Below, piece by piece: positions 26,535 through 35,321 of a DNA stretch of 35,515 nucleotides (positions are counted from its first letter, which is position 1; each line of letters opens with the position of its first letter). The notes below the pieces were generated by a model that saw nothing but the letters and a program-made list of their open reading frames with translations, was not told where the DNA came from and made no database searches. Origin of the DNA: an uncultured Bacilli bacterium. GTDB lineage: Bacteria; Bacillota_I; Bacilli_A; RF39; UBA660. The stretch is from contig CALVUM010000008.1 of the NCBI GenBank assembly GCA_944363605.1, positions 1 through 35,515 of the forward strand. Direction: 5' to 3'. The translations under genes were made by a program, and so were the position numbers.

Positions 26535-27845
26535 CTAATAGCCAAAAACTTGAACCCAGTAGTATCGACCATTAAAATAGTTGATACCAATACCTATTTT
26601 TGTATAATCGCCAATCATATTTTGATAATGTCCAGACGAATTTTTCCACGATGTAAAGACAGCATTTGGAGTACTTTGACTATGTGCAATATTCTCGGCA
26701 TAAAACAACTGTCCAAATTCATACCCAAGTGTAAAACAAGAGCTTCCATCTGGTCTATCATGACTGAATGTATTTCCATAACTAAGTTCCATCGCACGAA
26801 TCATAGCCATTGTAGTTAAATTCGAATCTAAAGAAAGGGTCGATTTATTAAGACTAGTTCGTAATTCGTTAACTAAAGAGACCACTTCATTAGCCATACC
26901 ACTATATTTTGAAGCATTTTCGATGGCCTCAAGTTTCAAAGTAGCTGTAGTTCCATTATATGAAGAATAGTCATAGGTAGTGCTTATAATTCTAGAATCA
27001 TATAATTCTTCGCTATTATCCTGTTTTACTCGGTAATAATCAGTTATTTCTTTTACAGCTTTCACGCCATATTTAAAATCCTCTTTTTGGGTGCGAGTTT
27101 TTGTATAATAACTCTTATAAGGGTTATTAGTTGTTGAATTAGAATTTGTTGTAGATGAAGATGAATTAGAACTATTGGAGCTACTTCCATTATTGGAAGT
27201 GTTTGAATTAGAAGATGCATTATTTGTAGTTGAAGAATTTTGCTTTATTGGTTCTTGCTCATCTTTGGTTATTGTTAGCTTGGTTTCTTTTTGAACCGCA
27301 TTTCCTGTTTGGTCTTTGGCAAGAATAACAATTGGATATTCTCCTATTTCTTGATAATTTCCCATAGCATTATCCTTATATTCCAGTATGCATTCTTCTT
27401 TGGAATTATCTACACAACTTACCACAAAATTGGCTATCTCATAAGTAGAATTTTGAGGGGTAGTTACCTCTTGTACTTCTAATTGAGGAGATTCTTTATC
27501 TATAACTTGTAAAATGGTCTGATACTCAGTATCTTTATCTTTAATAACAACTTTAAATTCTCCAATTTTATTATAAACATCAGAAAAACTTACTTCTTCA
27601 TCGTTTAAAAAATATGCAATAGAAGCATCTTCCACATTAGTAGTGGTAACAAAAAAATCTGAAACTTCTAAAACAGAAGAATAAACTTCTACCTCTACTT
27701 CTTCTTTTACCACTTTGTTATTTATTTCATTTGTAGGTTCTTGATCGTTTTTACTACGGTTTAACAAAAATAATGCACTTCCTACTCCAATACCTATCAA
27801 TAAAAGTACTACACATACAATAATCATCACATTTTTCTTCTTCAC
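26535..27845 (-). CDS. membrane-anchored CAP-domain protein with Ig-like domain
   Basis: 436 residues, extracellular with an N-terminal anchor (about 6-28). Domains in order are an Ig-like/DUF5011-type module (ESPQLEVQEV…GEYPIVILAKDQTGNAVQKE; about 115-195), a Ser/Asn/Thr-rich linker (about 200-240), and a C-terminal CAP/SCP domain (about 310-436). The CAP cavity residues are present: His in FSHDRPDGS, Glu in YAENIAHS and His in SGHYQNMI, followed by the GIGINYFNGRYYWVQVFG ending. Bacterial CAP proteins are secreted; their activity is mostly unknown. GTG start with AGGAG 10 nt upstream. It is a paralogue of the gene at 31841-32917. Confidence 0.9.
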   Translation of the reverse strand: MKKKNVMIIVCVVLLLIGIGVGSALFLLNRSKNDQEPTNEINNKVVKEEVEVEVYSSVLEVSDFFVTTTNVEDASIAYFLNDEEVSFSDVYNKIGEFKVVIKDKDTEYQTILQVIDKESPQLEVQEVTTPQNSTYEIANFVVSCVDNSKEECILEYKDNAMGNYQEIGEYPIVILAKDQTGNAVQKETKLTITKDEQEPIKQNSSTTNNASSNSNTSNNGSSSNSSNSSSSTTNSNSTTNNPYKSYYTKTRTQKEDFKYGVKAVKEITDYYRVKQDNSEELYDSRIISTTYDYSSYNGTTATLKLEAIENASKYSGMANEVVSLVNELRTSLNKSTLSLDSNLTTMAMIRAMELSYGNTFSHDRPDGSSCFTLGYEFGQLFYAENIAHSQSTPNAVFTSWKNSSGHYQNMIGDYTKIGIGINYFNGRYYWVQVFGY

Positions 27846-27866
27846 TCTTTCTCAACTCCTACCATT

Positions 27867-27895
27867 ATTGTACTCGTCTCAAGTAAAATTGTCGA
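27867..27895 (-). promoter_or_regulatory. promoter of the CAP-carboxypeptidase unit
   Basis: Minus strand: -35 TCGACA (27890-27895), 17-bp spacer, -10 TACAAT (27867-27872), giving a leader of about 15-20 nt. It is back to back with the plus-strand promoter at 27902. Confidence 0.6.
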
Positions 27896-27901
27896 TATTT
27901 T

Positions 27902-27931
27902 TTGCATATTTTTTGTCCGACTCATTATGAT
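27902..27931 (+). promoter_or_regulatory. promoter of the DUF6512 gene
   Basis: TTGCAT (27902-27907), 18-bp spacer, TATGAT (27926-27931). The two divergent -35 boxes are six bases apart, so one bound protein could affect both genes. Confidence 0.5.
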
Positions 27932-27951
27932 ACTACTAGGTGATGCGATTC

Positions 27952-28479
27952 GTGAGCTTAAAAACATGGAAAATTATTAGTTGTATTGGAATTTTTTTAT
28001 TAAGTGCTCTTTCCCATTTTATCTATGATTGGTTTCCTAATTTTTTTACCAGCTTATTTTTCCCGGTCAATGAAAGCATTTGGGAACATAACAAAATTAT
28101 TGTCGATGCCTTCTTCATTTGGGCAATTTTTGAAAAAATCTTTTACAATAAAAGAAAAAATATCTTTTTTACTGAAAGCATTTCATCTTTAGTATGTATG
28201 ATTTTAGTTATGAGCTTATTTACCCCTGTCTATTTATATCTTTTAAAAACGAAAGATAATCTCATTATTACTTTTACAATATTTTTTTTCTCAATTCTCC
28301 TTAGTCAAATTTTATCTTATTATTTACTTCAAAAAAATTATAATCCAAAATTAGAAAAAAGAGGAATTTTTCTCTTCCTCTTCCTTGCATTTATAAATAC
28401 CCTTTTTACCTATTTTCCTTTAAAGGTTGCTCTTTTTTACGATTTTACTAAGAATATATATGGTCTTTTTAAAAAGTAA
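27952..28479 (+). CDS. DUF6512-family integral membrane protein
   Basis: 175 residues from the GTG at 27952 (AGGTG lies 9 nt upstream; an in-frame GTG at 27940 overlaps that site). About five membrane helices. The family signature lies in the first third: LLSALSHFIYDWF then FFPVNESIWEHNKII, a conserved His/Trp/Asn/Glu-rich region next to the first helices. Function unknown. It is one of only two conventional genes on the plus strand. It is divergent from the CAP gene and ends five bases before the ileS stop, so transcripts converge there with no visible terminator. Confidence 0.83.
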   Translation: MSLKTWKIISCIGIFLLSALSHFIYDWFPNFFTSLFFPVNESIWEHNKIIVDAFFIWAIFEKIFYNKRKNIFFTESISSLVCMILVMSLFTPVYLYLLKTKDNLIITFTIFFFSILLSQILSYYLLQKNYNPKLEKRGIFLFLFLAFINTLFTYFPLKVALFYDFTKNIYGLFKK

Positions 28480-28484
28480 AAACA

Positions 28485-31400
28485 TTATTTTTTTTCTAAA
28501 TCAATTGCTACTTTCTCGCCATTAATATCAAACATATCAGATAAGTTTTCTTTTAAAATAATTTCTGTTGCCAAAGTTTCTTCTTTAATATATTCGCCAA
28601 ACATTTCTAATACTTTTGCAAAATTTTCAGTTCCATTATAATACAAAACGATTCGATCCGTAATTTCTAATCCTTTTCCTTTACGCATATTTTGTATTTT
28701 ACTTATAAATTCTCTAGCCATACCTTCTAAAATAAGTTCTTCTGTTCTTTCTGTATTTAAAATAACGAAATTTTGATTTTCCATAGAAACATTAAAACCT
28801 TCTTTTGCTTCTACTCGAATATCAACCATATTTTTTTCCACATTTATTTTCTCGCCATCCATAAGGATCGCTACTTCACCATTATTCTCTAATGAAGTGA
28901 TTTCTTCATTAGTAAGGTTTTGTAAAGCTTCTTGGAACAATTTGATTTTTGGTCCAAAAATTTTTCCTACTTCTTTAAAATTTGGTTTCACAGAAAAGTT
29001 CATATACTTACTTAAATCATCAATAAATTCTATTCTTTTAACGTTTAATTCTTCTTCGATTAAAGAAGTTAAATCTTCTAAAACACTTTTATTTCGACCA
29101 TCTAAATAGACTACACTTAATGGTTCACGAACCTTTATTTTAGCTTCTTCACGACCATTACGACCTAAACGAATTAAATCTCTTACTAAATCCATTTTTT
29201 CTTCTAAAGCATCATCTAAAAGTTTCTCGTCACACACTGGATAGGTCTCTAAATGAACACTTTCCTTGCCTGTTAAGTTCCTATAAATTTCTTCTGAAAT
29301 AAACGGTGTAATTGGAGCGATAAGTTTTGCAAGTCCAATTAAAACTTCATAAGTGGTAATGTATACACTTTTTTTCGAAAGTGTCATTTCACTATTCCAA
29401 AATCTTTTTCGATTTCTTCTAATATACCAATTCGATAAATCTTCGGAAACAAAATTGGCAATAAAGCGTGTCACTTTATTTAAGTCATATTCTTCAAATG
29501 CTTCTGTAACATTTTTTACTAAACGATTATATTTTGATAACAACCAACGATCAATATCTTCTCTTTCTTTATAAGGTACGTCACATAAATCCGTATCAAT
29601 ATGATCCGCATTTGCATACATTTCAAAAAAGCTATAAGTATTTTTTAGTGGATTTAAAAATTTCGAATAAACTTCTTTTAATCCTTCTTCGCTAAACTTT
29701 AACGGAGTCCATACAGGTGAGACATATGGTAAGTAAAAACGAACTGTGTCGGCACCATATTTTTCCATAGTTGTAAATGGTTCGACAATATTTCCTTTAC
29801 TCTTACTCATCTTTTTTCCTTCAGAATCAAGAACTAAATCGTTAACCAAAACATTTTTATATGGAGCACACCCCTTTACAAAAGTAGAAATTACTAACAG
29901 TGTATAAAACCAACCTCTTGTTTGATCAATTCCTTCACAAATAAAATCAGCTGGAAATTGCGATTCAAACATTTCTTGATTTTCAAATGGGTAATGATAT
30001 TGAGCAAATGGCATAGCTCCTGAATCAAACCAACAGTCAATTACATCATTTACACGGTGCATTTCTTCCCCACATTTTGGACATTTTAAACGGATTTCAT
30101 CAACAAATGGACGGTGCAATTCAACAGTTTTTGAATCAATTTTAGTCGTCGCCATAGTAGCAAGTTCTTCACGACTACCAACCATATGATCATATCCGCA
30201 AGCACATCTCCACAATGGAAGTGGGGTGCCCCAATAACGATTACGACTTATGGCCCAATCTTTTAGCTCTTCTAGCCAATTTCCGAAACGCTTTTCGCCA
30301 ACATATGCCGGATACCAATTTACTGTTCGATTTGCTTCAATGATATCATCTTTAAACTTCGTAGTTTCAATATAAAAACTTGGTTTTGAATAGTAAATTA
30401 ATGGGGTATTACATCTCCAACAATGTGGATAGTTGTGAATTATTTTTTGTTTTTTAAAGAGTTTGTCATTTTCCTTTAAATATTTTATAACCTCTACATC
30501 CGCATCAAAAACGAGCATTCCTTTCCATGGTCCTTCTAAGTATTTACCATCTTCGCCTACTGGATTTATATAAGGTAATTTATATTTTTTCCCAACACGA
30601 GCATCATCCTCACCAAAAGCAGGCGCTAAATGAACGATTCCTGTACCACTATCCATACTGACATATTCATCACAGCAAACAAAGAAACCACCTTCAACTT
30701 TAAGTTCAGGGATAAGTTGTTCATATTCTTCTTTTTCTAAGTCTTTACCTAGATAGGTTTCAAGTACGGTAAATTCTTCCCCTAAAACAGTATGAGCTAA
30801 AGCCTCGGCAACAATAAATTTATTGCCTTTTGATTCACAAAGAACATACTTTTCCTTTGGGTTTACACAAACAGCAACATTTGCAAGAAGTGTCCAAGGA
30901 GTCGTTGTCCATACTAAAAGATAAGCATCTTTATTTTTTAATTTCATCGGAACAATAACCGTATCAACACTGACCTCTTTATATCCTTGTGCTACTTCAT
31001 GACTTGCGAGTCCTGTTCCACATCTTGGACAATAAGGCAAGATTTTACTTCCTTCATAGAAGTATCCTTCGTCAAAAAACTTCTTTAAAATCCACCATTC
31101 TGTTTCAATGTAATTATTATCGTAGGTAATATAAGGATCTTTTAAATCAATAAATTGTCCCATTGTACTCGTAAGTTTCGAAAAACTCTCTTCATTTTTC
31201 CAAACACTTTCACGACATTTTTGATTAAATTCAGGTATTCCAAATGCTTCAATATCTGCTTTACTATGAAAACCTAATTCCTTTTCGACTTGTAATTCTA
31301 CAGGCAAACCATGAGTATCCCAACCAATTTTTCTATAAACAAGGTGCCCCTTCATTGTTTGATATTTACAAAAAGTGTCTTTCAAAAATTTTGCCATCAT

Positions 31401-31580
31401 ATGATGAAGTCCAGGATGCCCATTTGCTGTTGCGGGACCATCATAAAAAACAAATTTCGGATCATTTAGATGTTTTTCAATCGATTTCTCATAAATACCT
31501 TGTACACCTTCCCAAGACTTTAAAATATCTTGTTCCATTTCATAAGGACTTCTTTTGTCTAAACTTTTAAAATCTTTCAT
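28485..31580 (-). CDS. ileS: isoleucyl-tRNA synthetase, type 2-like
   Basis: Charges tRNA-Ile. 1031 residues from the ATG at 31580 (GGAAGGTGAGG upstream); an earlier in-frame start would lie in the T-box. Class I motifs: the HIGH equivalent in ATANGHPGLHHMMAK and GKKMSKSKGN (KMSKS). The editing domain has GWDTHGLPVE and LLVWTTTPWTL. The HPGLHH form of the signature and the DUF5915-type C-terminal region (FKEVGKIFGPKIKLF…RKGKGLEITDRIVLYYN) mark the type 2 clade, related to eukaryotic enzymes. That clade often tolerates mupirocin; the tolerance here is inference. An Ile-specific T-box and a strong promoter precede it. Confidence 0.96.
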   Translation of the reverse strand: MKDFKSLDKRSPYEMEQDILKSWEGVQGIYEKSIEKHLNDPKFVFYDGPATANGHPGLHHMMAKFLKDTFCKYQTMKGHLVYRKIGWDTHGLPVELQVEKELGFHSKADIEAFGIPEFNQKCRESVWKNEESFSKLTSTMGQFIDLKDPYITYDNNYIETEWWILKKFFDEGYFYEGSKILPYCPRCGTGLASHEVAQGYKEVSVDTVIVPMKLKNKDAYLLVWTTTPWTLLANVAVCVNPKEKYVLCESKGNKFIVAEALAHTVLGEEFTVLETYLGKDLEKEEYEQLIPELKVEGGFFVCCDEYVSMDSGTGIVHLAPAFGEDDARVGKKYKLPYINPVGEDGKYLEGPWKGMLVFDADVEVIKYLKENDKLFKKQKIIHNYPHCWRCNTPLIYYSKPSFYIETTKFKDDIIEANRTVNWYPAYVGEKRFGNWLEELKDWAISRNRYWGTPLPLWRCACGYDHMVGSREELATMATTKIDSKTVELHRPFVDEIRLKCPKCGEEMHRVNDVIDCWFDSGAMPFAQYHYPFENQEMFESQFPADFICEGIDQTRGWFYTLLVISTFVKGCAPYKNVLVNDLVLDSEGKKMSKSKGNIVEPFTTMEKYGADTVRFYLPYVSPVWTPLKFSEEGLKEVYSKFLNPLKNTYSFFEMYANADHIDTDLCDVPYKEREDIDRWLLSKYNRLVKNVTEAFEEYDLNKVTRFIANFVSEDLSNWYIRRNRKRFWNSEMTLSKKSVYITTYEVLIGLAKLIAPITPFISEEIYRNLTGKESVHLETYPVCDEKLLDDALEEKMDLVRDLIRLGRNGREEAKIKVREPLSVVYLDGRNKSVLEDLTSLIEEELNVKRIEFIDDLSKYMNFSVKPNFKEVGKIFGPKIKLFQEALQNLTNEEITSLENNGEVAILMDGEKINVEKNMVDIRVEAKEGFNVSMENQNFVILNTERTEELILEGMAREFISKIQNMRKGKGLEITDRIVLYYNGTENFAKVLEMFGEYIKEETLATEIILKENLSDMFDINGEKVAIDLEKK

Positions 31581-31599
31581 TTTCCTCACCTTCCTAAAT

Positions 31600-31783
31600 A
31601 AAAAAGGACAGTACCAAAGGAGTCTTTTAAAAGACGGTACCATCCTTAATTTTTACTTTTTTTCACTATTTATCGTTAGTGGGTCCGCAAAAACAATGAT
31701 TTAAGTGATATTTACTATATTCATTTATCTAGTTTCACCAACCCTAGACTCTCTTAAAATACCCTATAGTAAACGTGTCTTAA
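31600..31783 (-). promoter_or_regulatory. T-box riboswitch for ileS (Ile specifier AUC)
   Basis: A tRNA-sensing leader on the minus strand. Stem I base: TTAAG (31779-31783) with CTTAA (31701-31705). Upper helix: TTTACTATA (31765-31773) with TATAGTAAA (31711-31719). Between them the specifier loop reads TATCA, presenting AUC (31707-31709) for isoleucine. The T-box sequence AAGGATGGTACC (31636-31647) carries the UGGU that pairs with the tRNA 3' end. It can form an antiterminator with GTCTTTTAAAAGAC/TCC, or a terminator with GGTACTGTCCTT (31604-31615) followed by six U. Uncharged tRNA-Ile should switch the gene on. Confidence 0.92.
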
Positions 31784-31802
31784 TGTTTTTGAATACTTTT
31801 TT

Positions 31803-31831
31803 ATTATAAGAAACTTGCTGGTATTTGTCAA
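31803..31831 (-). promoter_or_regulatory. ileS promoter
   Basis: Minus strand: consensus TTGACA (31826-31831), 17-bp spacer, TATAAT (31803-31808). The -35 box starts ten bases beyond the stop of the upstream CAP-like gene. Confidence 0.9.
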
Positions 31832-31840
31832 ATATTTCTT

Positions 31841-32917
31841 TTACCCTGTTATATAAACTACCCAATAGTAATGATTATGAACATATGCAAATCCAACACC
31901 AATTTTAGTGAAAGATGCATCATTTAATTTTACTTTCATTTCATTGTTATTATACATTTGATTAACAGCTATCGTAGGCTCTGAAATATCTTTTAAAATA
32001 AATTCTCCACTTCTTTCATAAGGTATTTCGACTTCATCTAAAATACTTTGATTTGTAGTTGGCCGAATCGTTGAATATTTATTTGAATAGCCAATTTCTA
32101 AAGCTCTTAGTTCCGCTATAGCTGTTAAGTCTCCATCCATCTCTAACTCTTCTAATCCATTGTTTTTTCTCACTTCATTTGTCTTTAAAAATACGCTTGC
32201 AATGTAATCGGCATAAGTTACCATTTGATATCCTGACTCATAAGCTAAATCTTCTAACGTAGCATTATAGGTTGTAAAATCGCATGTTACTAAAGCTTCA
32301 GACGAGCCAACCTCATGAGCTCCTTCGTAAAAAGTTGTAATAAGATACTCACAAGTTGCTCCATATACATCTCTTACTTCCACTATTTCTTCTTTAGTTA
32401 TTTCTTCATTCATTGTAATATTTGGTTGCTTGTTTTCTAATGAAGGAAGTTTTTTGTCTTCTTTAACCTCTTCCGTATTCGATGAATTTTCTTCCCCTAT
32501 TTTTTCAATTTGTTCTTTAACTGAATTATTTTCTTCAGTATTTTCTTTAACAGGAGAACCATCTTGTTGAATGGTTAATTTTACAGTTTTTAAAGTTTCG
32601 TTTTCTGCATCATCTAAAGCTCTTACAATAATTTCATATTCTCCAGGTTCTTTATAATCTTCCATTTTCTTTTCTTTAAATTCAATAGTACACTTTGAAA
32701 GATTATCTTTACAAGAGCTTACAAAATCTTCAACCTTATATAAATCCCCTTCATTTATCTTAACATCTTTTACTTCTAAAACAGGTGACTCTTTATCCAT
32801 TTTCTTTGCTTCTAAATCTGCCATACTTTTTTTAACAAACAAATATGTTCCAACAGAAATTCCACCAAGTACTAAAACAATTGTTATACCAATAACCCAA
32901 GACTTCCACTTTTTCAT
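31841..32917 (-). CDS. membrane-anchored CAP-like paralogue with lost cavity residues
   Basis: 358 residues with the same architecture as the gene at 26535-27845: N-terminal anchor (about 8-28), Ig-like module (ESPVLEVKDVKINEGDLY…GEYEIIVRALDDAENETLK), acidic Glu/Asn-rich linker, CAP-like C terminus. The two share the disulfide-like SCKDNLSKC/SCVDNSKEEC element. In the CAP region, however, the conserved His of the first paralogue (SHDRPDG) is replaced (YSTIRPTT), Glu of AENIA falls in a GEFIL segment, and the HYQNM His is gone (NEMKVKL). The closing GIGINYF…YYWV pattern survives (GVGFAY…YYWVVYI). A structural or binding role is likelier than catalysis. AGGAG precedes the ATG. Confidence 0.8.
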   Translation of the reverse strand: MKKWKSWVIGITIVLVLGGISVGTYLFVKKSMADLEAKKMDKESPVLEVKDVKINEGDLYKVEDFVSSCKDNLSKCTIEFKEKKMEDYKEPGEYEIIVRALDDAENETLKTVKLTIQQDGSPVKENTEENNSVKEQIEKIGEENSSNTEEVKEDKKLPSLENKQPNITMNEEITKEEIVEVRDVYGATCEYLITTFYEGAHEVGSSEALVTCDFTTYNATLEDLAYESGYQMVTYADYIASVFLKTNEVRKNNGLEELEMDGDLTAIAELRALEIGYSNKYSTIRPTTNQSILDEVEIPYERSGEFILKDISEPTIAVNQMYNNNEMKVKLNDASFTKIGVGFAYVHNHYYWVVYITG

Positions 32918-32959: not shown

Positions 32960-33001
32960 AAAAAGCAAAAGTAAAGAGAATATCAGAAGTAGACATTCTC
33001 T
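32960..33001 (-). terminator. terminator of lon
   Basis: Minus strand: AGAGAAT (32995-33001) pairs with ATTCTCT (32975-32981) around a 13-nt loop, followed by a U-rich tract with single interruptions. The lon stop codon overlaps the 5' arm. Confidence 0.6.
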
Positions 33002-35321
33002 ATTCATTCATAAATATTTTTTCATAGATATCTTGATATTCTTTAACAAAAATAATTGTTAATTTATCTCGGATTTCTTTAGGCACTTTTTTTACATCTA
33101 ACTCATTAGCCTTAGGCAAGAAAACAGTTCGTATTCCTTGATTATAGGCACTGATAACTTTCTCTTTAATCCCACCAACTGGCATAACCTCACCTCGCAA
33201 GGTCATCTCACCAGTCATCGCGATATCTAAAGAAACCTTTTTATTGGTATAAAGACTTATCAAACTTGTTGTAATAGCCACACCAGCACTCGGTCCATTT
33301 TTAGGAATTGCACCTTCTAACATATGGATATGAATGTCCTTTTTTTGAAAAACATTCTCATTAATTTCAAAATTTTTGGCATTTGCTTTTAAAAAACTCA
33401 TTACAACACTTAAAGATTCTTTCATAACCTCACCAAGTAATCCAGTAACAATGACATTTCCTTTTCCATCATATAAAGTAGCTTCAATAGGCATCACTAC
33501 TCCACCAACACCTGTAACTGCAAGGCCATTTACTAAACCTTTTGTAAACAATTTTGGTTTTAAGTCTTCAAGCGTTAATTGTTCATTTAAATATTTTTTT
33601 AAATCTTTTGCATCAATTACCATTTCTAAATTTTTCTTTTTTTTCACACTTTCCATAATTACTTTTCGTAAAATAGTTTCCAGTTTTCTTCTTAAATCAC
33701 GAACTCCAGCTTCATTTGTATAATCTAAAATAATCTTGGTTAAAGCTTCATCAGTAAAGGTAACTTCTTCTTTTGAGATATGATATTCTAAATAAATCGC
33801 TGGTAACAAATATTCCTTTGCGAGTTTTAATTTCTCTAAAATGGTATAACTTGAAAGTTCAATCATTTCTAACCGGTCACGAAGTTCAATTGGAATATCT
33901 TCCTTATAATTCGCGGTTAAAATAAATAAAACATGACTTAAATCAAAAGGTTCTTCTAAGTAAGAATCTGTGAAAAATTGATTTAAATTGGGATCTAACA
34001 CATCTAATAAGACACTTGCTGGGTCACCATGATAATCTTTAATCATTTTATCTACTTCATCAATTAATAAAACAGGATTTTTGCTACCACATTTCTGAAT
34101 AGCTGTAATGATTTTTCCTGGGGAAGAACCGATATAAGTTCTTCGATGCCCCATTAATTCGGCGGAATCATTTAATCCACCAACACTAATTTTATAAAAC
34201 TCGCGATGAAGAGATGTCGCGATGGACGAGGCAATTGTGCTTTTTCCAACTCCTGGAGGACCAACTAAACAAATAATGGGACTCGTAAGCATTGGATTTC
34301 GACTTTTCATTGCCGCATATTCTAAAATTCTTTCTTTTACTTCTTTTAATCCATAATGGGATTTATTTAAAACATTGGTAATATATTTTAAATCTAAAGC
34401 TTCTATTGTTTCATCATTCCAAGGAAGCGAAAAAAATGTTTCTAAATAATTACGTACAAAAGCCAAATCAGGACTCATTTCATTCATAAATTCATATTTT
34501 TGAATTTCAGATAAAATCTTTTTCTTGGTTTTTTGAGAAATTTCTAAATTTTCTAATTTTTCTCGATAAATATCTGCTTCTTTATTTTGATGATTATCTT
34601 CTCCCAATTCTTTTTGGATTTCTTGAAGTTTTTCCCGTAGTACATATTCCTTTTGACTTTTATCCAATTCTTGTTGCAAAGCTTGATTAATTTTTTGATC
34701 TAACTTCACAACTTTTAGTTCAATTACCAAGTCATCAAGTAAAGCATTTGCCCTTACAACTGGGTCAATTTCTTCCATATAAAATAATTTTTTTTCAAAA
34801 TTCATCGGTAAGAAAACGACACCCATATCTGTTAAATCGCTTAAACTTTTTTCTTCGGTTATTTCTCTTAAAATAGAATTATCTAAAGATAAAGAAGATT
34901 TCACATAACGCCTAATTAACCGAATCACTTCTTTTTTTAAAGCAATTTCTTCAGGAGTTCTAGAATCAAAAATTTCAGGAATATAATACTGACATTGTAA
35001 TAGCTCTTTTTCTTTATCAGAATTAAAATATTTATGAACTTTTACTCTCTTCCCGCCAAGAATAGTCACTCGAACATGATTATTAGGAAGAAGGATTTTT
35101 TTAGAAATTTGAGCTACAACAGCTGTTAAAGGTAAATCTTCTACATCGGGAATCTCTTCTAAAAAATCTTTTGGTGAGACAAGAATAAATTGGTTTTGAA
35201 AATTCTTTTCACTAAGTTCTAAAATATTTAAAGAAAGTGGGTTACTTAGCTCTAGTTTCACTTCTTGATTAGGCAATAAAACTAAGTTTTTTAATAGCAT
35301 AACTGGTAAAGTTTTTGCCAT
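33000..35321 (-). CDS. lon: ATP-dependent protease Lon (LonA)
   Basis: An AAA+ serine protease degrading misfolded and regulatory proteins. 773 residues, full length. The N-terminal LON domain (about 5-200) and coiled coil (205-265) come first. The ATPase follows, with Walker A GPPGVGKST (354-362), Walker B VLLIDEVDK (417-425) and sensor segments. The protease domain has the catalytic dyad S678 (AIPKNGPSAGVAI) and K721 (VGGIKEKVIS), matching S679/K722 of E. coli. AAGGAGTGG precedes the ATG. It has its own promoter, and I see no CIRCE or CtsR box nearby. The upstream neighbour is tig (trigger factor), a common Firmicute arrangement. Confidence 0.98.
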   Translation of the reverse strand: MAKTLPVMLLKNLVLLPNQEVKLELSNPLSLNILELSEKNFQNQFILVSPKDFLEEIPDVEDLPLTAVVAQISKKILLPNNHVRVTILGGKRVKVHKYFNSDKEKELLQCQYYIPEIFDSRTPEEIALKKEVIRLIRRYVKSSLSLDNSILREITEEKSLSDLTDMGVVFLPMNFEKKLFYMEEIDPVVRANALLDDLVIELKVVKLDQKINQALQQELDKSQKEYVLREKLQEIQKELGEDNHQNKEADIYREKLENLEISQKTKKKILSEIQKYEFMNEMSPDLAFVRNYLETFFSLPWNDETIEALDLKYITNVLNKSHYGLKEVKERILEYAAMKSRNPMLTSPIICLVGPPGVGKSTIASSIATSLHREFYKISVGGLNDSAELMGHRRTYIGSSPGKIITAIQKCGSKNPVLLIDEVDKMIKDYHGDPASVLLDVLDPNLNQFFTDSYLEEPFDLSHVLFILTANYKEDIPIELRDRLEMIELSSYTILEKLKLAKEYLLPAIYLEYHISKEEVTFTDEALTKIILDYTNEAGVRDLRRKLETILRKVIMESVKKKKNLEMVIDAKDLKKYLNEQLTLEDLKPKLFTKGLVNGLAVTGVGGVVMPIEATLYDGKGNVIVTGLLGEVMKESLSVVMSFLKANAKNFEINENVFQKKDIHIHMLEGAIPKNGPSAGVAITTSLISLYTNKKVSLDIAMTGEMTLRGEVMPVGGIKEKVISAYNQGIRTVFLPKANELDVKKVPKEIRDKLTIIFVKEYQDIYEKIFMNE

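Follow-up and report, generated by a model that had tools for sequence, protein, structure and literature searches.

The window considered here is the whole stretch of 35,515 nucleotides analyzed on contig CALVUM010000008.1 (NCBI GenBank assembly GCA_944363605.1) of an uncultured Bacilli bacterium (GTDB lineage RF39; UBA660), in which two genes with CAP domains, named CAP1 and CAP2, lie on either side of ileS. On the minus strand the gene order is lon, CAP2, ileS, CAP1 and a D-Ala-D-Ala carboxypeptidase (Pfam S11), followed by two further genes that we take to be NfeD-like and SPFH (Table 1). The ancestry, conservation and variation of CAP2 were investigated by placing the window genome (G000) in a comparison set of 36 genomes of its genus together with 395 genomes of its class. 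All genomes concerned are metagenome-assembled genomes (MAGs), and the CAP2 relatives that bear names belong to Candidatus Ventrenecus or to uncultured Bacilli and Tenericutes MAGs, some of them from chicken.

Table 1. Coordinates of the two CAP genes and of the features around them in the window
Feature	Position	Strand	Remarks
CAP2	31841-32917	-	358 aa: N-terminal membrane anchor (predicted), one Rib/Ig-like module, K/E-rich linker, three-stranded beta hairpin module, CAP domain
CAP2 hairpin and CAP head	31844-32404	-	residues 172-358
CAP2 anchor and Rib/Ig-like stalk	32564-32917	-	residues 1-118
CAP1	26535-27845	-	436 aa: anchor (predicted), two beta-sandwich modules, N/S/T-rich linker, hairpin module, CAP domain
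ileS	28485-31643	-	between CAP2 and CAP1
T-box leader of ileS	31615-31790	-	49.3 bits, E 4.7e-10 in a 351-base search; Rfam gathering score 93
Promoter-like site	31803-31831	-	12/12 consensus bases, just past the CAP2 stop
DUF6512 membrane protein	27940-28479	+	convergent, between ileS and CAP1
lon	33000-35321	-	upstream neighbor of CAP2 in 7/9 CAP2 genomes

Domains and surroundings of CAP1 and CAP2

Both CAP genes are open reading frames on either side of ileS, as an earlier sequence-only reading of this DNA had proposed, and both products exceed the Pfam cut-off of 21.1 bits for the CAP family (PF00188; 77.9 bits, E 1.4e-21 for CAP1 and 34.4 bits, E 4.4e-8 for CAP2), chance being excluded for either of these profile matches. 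The two proteins are 30% identical over 321 aligned positions and share an Ig-like beta-sandwich module with a Cys pair (C144/C152 in CAP1, C69/C76 in CAP2) as well as the YYWV pattern, features that the same reading had described correctly. Its claim of identical architecture did not hold: strands within residues 49–115 of the predicted CAP1 model form an additional N-terminal beta module that is missing from the CAP2 model, the architectures therefore being similar and not identical, and the linkers are unlike in composition. The cavity set of His, Glu and His is complete in CAP1 (H362, E384, H406), again as claimed, while the aligned positions of CAP2 hold T283, E305 and M327; the assertion that CAP2 had replaced all of these residues is thus right for both His and wrong for the Glu. 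The Trp near the second His (W400 in CAP1) corresponds to M321 in CAP2.

Both proteins scored below the NCBI cut-off of 171 for TIGR02909 (YkwD; 75.3 bits for CAP1 and 40.0 for CAP2), and Pfam Rib (PF08428) reached 15.5 bits on CAP2, below its cut-off of 27. An assignment of CAP1 to DalA was rejected, the NCBIfam match being 29.5 bits against a cut-off of 200; the accessible portion of the text of the DalA paper (PMC10470522) contains none of the terms CAP, SCP, amidase, AmiC or 'active site'. A third CAP protein of the window genome was encountered on contig C18 (L199:266-1627), and this protein, together with L196, L204 and L205, represents a further CAP family of the genus, whose first motif is different.

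Structure prediction from shallow alignments (6 and 10 sequences) gave an alpha-beta-alpha CAP fold for both heads at high confidence, with predicted local distance difference test (pLDDT) values of 83–96 per block in the CAP2 head and Z scores of 17–19 to solved bacterial CAP proteins. The top structural match of both models was 4ifa (Z 19.2 for CAP2 and 18.9 for CAP1), and CAP2 also matched BB0689 (Z 17.3), SAV1118 (15.9) and SmVAL4 (12.7). A CAP2 profile gave no match among PDB sequences at E ≤ 0.01, and the fold match of CAP2 therefore rests on the model. The protein 4ifa, a YkwD-type protein from Bacillus anthracis, is an extracellular CAP domain, as CAP1 and CAP2 would be, and it aligns with CAP1 through the FSH, ENIA and GH motifs; from 4ifa and TIGR02909, CAP2 differs by the loss of both His and by its Rib-like stalk and hairpin. 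BB0689 (Borrelia burgdorferi, 4d53) is also a bacterial surface CAP domain, but H, E and H are all still present where its sequence aligns with the cavity set, and its solved chain has no Rib-like stalk. In its predicted fold the CAP2 stalk resembles the Rib domains known from surface proteins of streptococci and lactobacilli (6s5x and others; Z 9.8 over 79 residues, 3.0 Å root-mean-square deviation), as does one CAP1 module (Z 9.1–9.3), with PKD-like and other beta sandwiches reaching Z 8. Unlike the Rib proteins, CAP2 has a single module instead of a tandem array, and its sequence score stays below the Rib cut-off given above.

The impression of a tight pair around ileS was corrected by what lies in between, i.e., the DUF6512 gene between ileS and CAP1, and the promoter-like site and T-box leader between CAP2 and ileS. 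Promoter-like sites numbered 22, against a mean of 32.1 in shuffled sequence, and the one after the CAP2 stop was the sole 12/12 match. No Rfam family matched the window at the gathering threshold, the T-box being seen only with an E-value threshold. The listed start of ileS (31643) falls within this leader, and the true start is likely the internal MKDFKS. A terminator-like stem was found 3' of lon. Given the promoter-like site between the CAP2 stop and the T-box leader, ileS is probably transcribed apart from CAP2, and CAP2 would sit between two housekeeping units, uncoupled from ileS as far as promoter, T-box and terminator evidence goes. Very divergent IleS-like proteins were noticed elsewhere, in G018 (C24:7588-10653, 35% identity) and in G001 (C11:9540-11918, 31%), the latter being the only match in its genome at E ≤ 1e-100. 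In G034, the D-Ala-D-Ala carboxypeptidase gene that follows ileS is broken into two frames (L120:7681-8890).

Ancestry and conservation of CAP2

CAP2 orthologues were found in 9 of the 36 genomes of the genus (window genome included), all nine adjoining lon and/or ileS, with CAP2 directly upstream of ileS in eight and downstream of lon in seven. In G008, CAP2 follows lon and ileS starts at the edge of another contig; in G030, lon is replaced by another gene; in G017, the contig ends. No CAP2 was found in 27 of the 36 genomes, some of which have broken contigs, and G016 carries a divergent relative outside this locus. The orthologues are 31–61% identical to the window copy. When the class was searched with a CAP2 profile, 66 of the 395 genomes matched, mostly to the stalk, and the best matches beyond the genus (G290 and G166) were full-length relatives with the His/Glu/His set. 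In a 25-row tree, whose deeper branching order is not settled, CAP2 and the G016 protein form one clade (100/99), the nine orthologues a clade within it (99/96), and the three CAP1 proteins a separate one (100/99). The relatives outside the CAP2 clade (G290, G166, G419, G194, G032 and G025) keep both His and the Glu. With CAP2 forming a single clade and these relatives retaining both His, the two cavity His and the nearby Trp were lost on the stem of the CAP2 clade, while the Glu, the fold and a new hairpin Cys pair were kept.

The alignment columns reflect this history. At the position of the first His, the nine CAP2 sequences show seven residue types (variability rank 3 of 138 columns), the second His column holds M, A or F, and the Trp column V, L or M. 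The Glu (E305 column) is invariant in all nine, and in ten of ten when G016 is counted; altogether 22 of the 138 CAP-domain columns are invariant in CAP2. Also common to all nine are H347, within a VHN/VHD turn, and a second Cys pair (C189/C212) on neighboring strands of the hairpin module, a candidate disulfide that is absent in G016 and at the matching place in the CAP1 group. Elsewhere in the class, CAP domains without the usual His but with the aligned Glu were observed in G326 and G265; the protein of G326 (L178:1114-3012, -) is 632 aa long and carries three CAP domains in succession, none of which shows the usual His set in the alignment.

The loss of both His, with the fold and the Glu retained, suggests that CAP2 is probably not a metal-binding CAP protein but a structural or binding scaffold. 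Its nearest residue parallel is eukaryotic: according to the accessible part of PMC4118828, SmVAL4 of Schistosoma mansoni (4p27) lacks both His, has one tetrad residue and the CAP4 motif G[EQ]N left, and binds sterol. By analogy, SmVAL4 is a precedent for the loss of the His with one tetrad residue kept, although it is unlike CAP2 in being eukaryotic, in its demonstrated binding of sterol and in having no stalk. Since SmVAL4, as far as that source goes, shows that members of the family may lack the His, CAP2 was filed by fold and profile and not as a metal-site CAP protein; the same example tells against the 'active' label that the sequence-only reading had given to the copy with the complete set, a label that assumes a known role for the cavity.

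Exchange of the CAP2 head between two sister genomes

The genomes G033 and G034 are sisters, with sampled matching blocks 94–98% identical. Between them, lon, the intergenic region and the CAP2 anchor and stalk show 95–100% identity per 60-base bin; near the end of the stalk this drops to 18–70% per bin and stays low through the linker, the hairpin and the CAP domain, returning to 95–100% around the ileS promoter and T-box leader. BLASTN aligned 2815 bases at 97.2% on the lon/stalk side and 3425 bases at 98.0% on the ileS side, and between these flanks only one stretch of 266 bases (67%). In the CAP domain the synonymous divergence (dS) of the pair reaches 0.89, compared with 0.08 for ileS and 0.13 for lon. 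This argues against rapid evolution of the protein as the sole cause and favors the import of a diverged head. The trees agree with such an import: the head of G033 clusters with the G013 head (100/100), that of G034 lies closest to the heads of G000, G017 and G030, and a clade of G033 and G034 is rejected for the head by the approximately unbiased test (p-AU 4e-44 on nucleotides and 2e-4 on amino acids; 1e-61 with the linker included), whereas the same clade receives 100/100 for lon and for ileS.

The extra bases that follow CAP2 in G034 were screened as a possible remnant of an older head, but the best E was 0.004 in A/T-rich sequence and nothing convincing emerged. For a phage or mobile origin of the head, none of 225 pattern matches in viral_contigs could be confirmed and no relative was found in 50,697 phage records, both being weak evidence of absence. 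The literature searched, which lacks most subscription journals, yielded no account of a bacterial CAP protein with an exchanged head.

The CAP2 frame is open in all nine genomes, and within head types the ratio of nonsynonymous to synonymous substitutions (dN/dS, NG86 values, which are saturated for distant pairs) amounts to 0.17 (G033–G013), 0.14 (G017–G030) and 0.29 (G011–G008) for the CAP domain. The CAP domain of CAP2 is, on these codon comparisons, under purifying selection within head types, and the random decay of the second copy that the sequence-only reading had named as its refuting outcome did not appear. CAP2 also changes much faster than its neighbors, the identities between G000 and G013 being 50% for CAP2, 67% for CAP1, 84% for ileS and 92% for lon. 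In G013 the CAP1 frame shifts near the C-terminal CAP motif (L118:8690-8750), which is either a true frameshift or an assembly error.

Interpretation and alternative explanations

We give an even chance to the interpretation that CAP2 is a His-less CAP scaffold, anchored in the membrane, with a constant stalk and a recombinationally exchanged head, likely acting in surface recognition. The constant part would consist of the anchor and the Rib/Ig-like stalk, and the variable part of the linker, the Cys-marked hairpin and the CAP head, the head being replaced as a block by homologous recombination between close relatives, flanked on one side by lon and the stalk and, on the other, by the promoter and T-box leader of ileS. 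Exposed at the surface, such a head may recognize the host, phages, neighboring cells or a wall ligand, and selection may favor new heads. Streptococcal Alp proteins are mosaic, and the marks of a mosaic surface protein, i.e., constant and variable parts, sharp edges and conflicting trees, were all found in G033/G034, the one clear case. Of the antigenic decoy suggested from the sequence alone, the antigenic part thus survives weakly and in another form, as an outer head of CAP2 exchanged between sister genomes.

Several observations weigh against this interpretation. The sharp exchange is seen in one genome pair and not in the window genome, and the stalk alone groups G033 with G034 at weak support (62/52). 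A stalk tree built earlier, from a cut at residue 118, contradicted this grouping (p-AU 0.029 against G033 plus G034); this cut ran past the exchange edge and was misleading, and the tree was redone at residue 104. Wider conflicts between stalk and head trees (p-AU 0.002–0.005 on nucleotides) suggest further exchanges as judged from tree topology, with the groups compared having been named after the trees were seen. A CAP2 protein search revealed no silent donor copies in G033 or G034 (79–85% complete), and no dN/dS above 1 was found. The two genomes differ in gene content as well, G034 having no counterpart to one 20 kb stretch of G033. Furthermore, ileS is itself mosaic in the genus (L118, L120, L121 and L119): lon places G033 and G034 with G000 and G013 (100/99), ileS separates G000 and G013 from G033 and G034 (100/100), and the identity between G013 and G034 falls about 150–200 bases into ileS. 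The region may therefore recombine without selection on CAP2.

The mosaic ileS is also one ground for a rival view, possible though doubtful, in which CAP2 is a housekeeping factor of the envelope that handles wall or lipid, its divergence tracks envelope chemistry and recombination around ileS produced the G033/G034 exchange as a neutral side effect. The nearby D-Ala-D-Ala carboxypeptidase is an envelope-type gene (as NfeD and SPFH presumably are), the head is under purifying selection, and SmVAL4, the nearest eukaryotic parallel, binds lipid according to the part of its description seen; however, the edges of the exchange fall within CAP2 and at the CAP2 stop and not in ileS, the sampled matching sequence of the two genomes is 94–98% identical, and no CAP2 was found in 27 of the 36 genomes of the genus. 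An assembly or binning chimera, in which the head difference came from mixed metagenome strains, is a concern with MAGs and a further point against an exchange, but we deem it improbable: the frames are open across the edges in both G033 and G034, the G033 head type recurs between lon and ileS in the independent genome G013 (also a MAG), and the G034 head has its nearest relatives in three other genomes.

The active/inactive partnership put forward by the sequence-only reading, with CAP1 working and CAP2 as a pseudo-copy that regulates or binds it, drew on the anchor, stalk, hairpin and CAP head common to both proteins and on their position around ileS in G000 and G013. It now appears very improbable, as CAP1 lies beyond ileS in only three genomes (G000, G021 and G013), both genes share the locus in just 2 of the 36, CAP2 is without CAP1 there in seven of nine genomes (and CAP1 without CAP2 in one of three), a search at E ≤ 0.001 detected no further CAP domain in five of the nine CAP2 genomes (MAGs 73–90% complete), and the frameshifted copy in G013 is CAP1, not CAP2. 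That CAP2 is a decaying relic is hardly credible, for despite an unconstrained first His column, a patchy distribution and low identity to the window copy, its open frames, invariant columns, conserved new Cys pair and VHN/VHD turn, and low dN/dS all speak otherwise.

For the interpretation of CAP2 as a surface scaffold with an exchangeable head, we tentatively propose, as a less than even possibility, that lon-CAP2-ileS acts as a built-in swap site for surface variation. The homology conserved on its two sides, in the two housekeeping genes and the T-box leader, would let DNA of relatives bring in a new CAP head in a single step without changing anchor or stalk, and the His-less CAP fold would be the scaffold for variable recognition, a part played by other folds in variable surface proteins already known. 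It is, to our knowledge, an open question what bacterial CAP domains do and whether the His/Glu/His cavity is important for this. The nine CAP2 proteins constitute a natural set that has retained the fold and the Glu but neither His, and this set therefore separates the scaffold from the metal site. The exchange of the head, in turn, makes surface variation open to testing in an uncultured gut lineage, and this in a fold that is not usually seen as a variable head.

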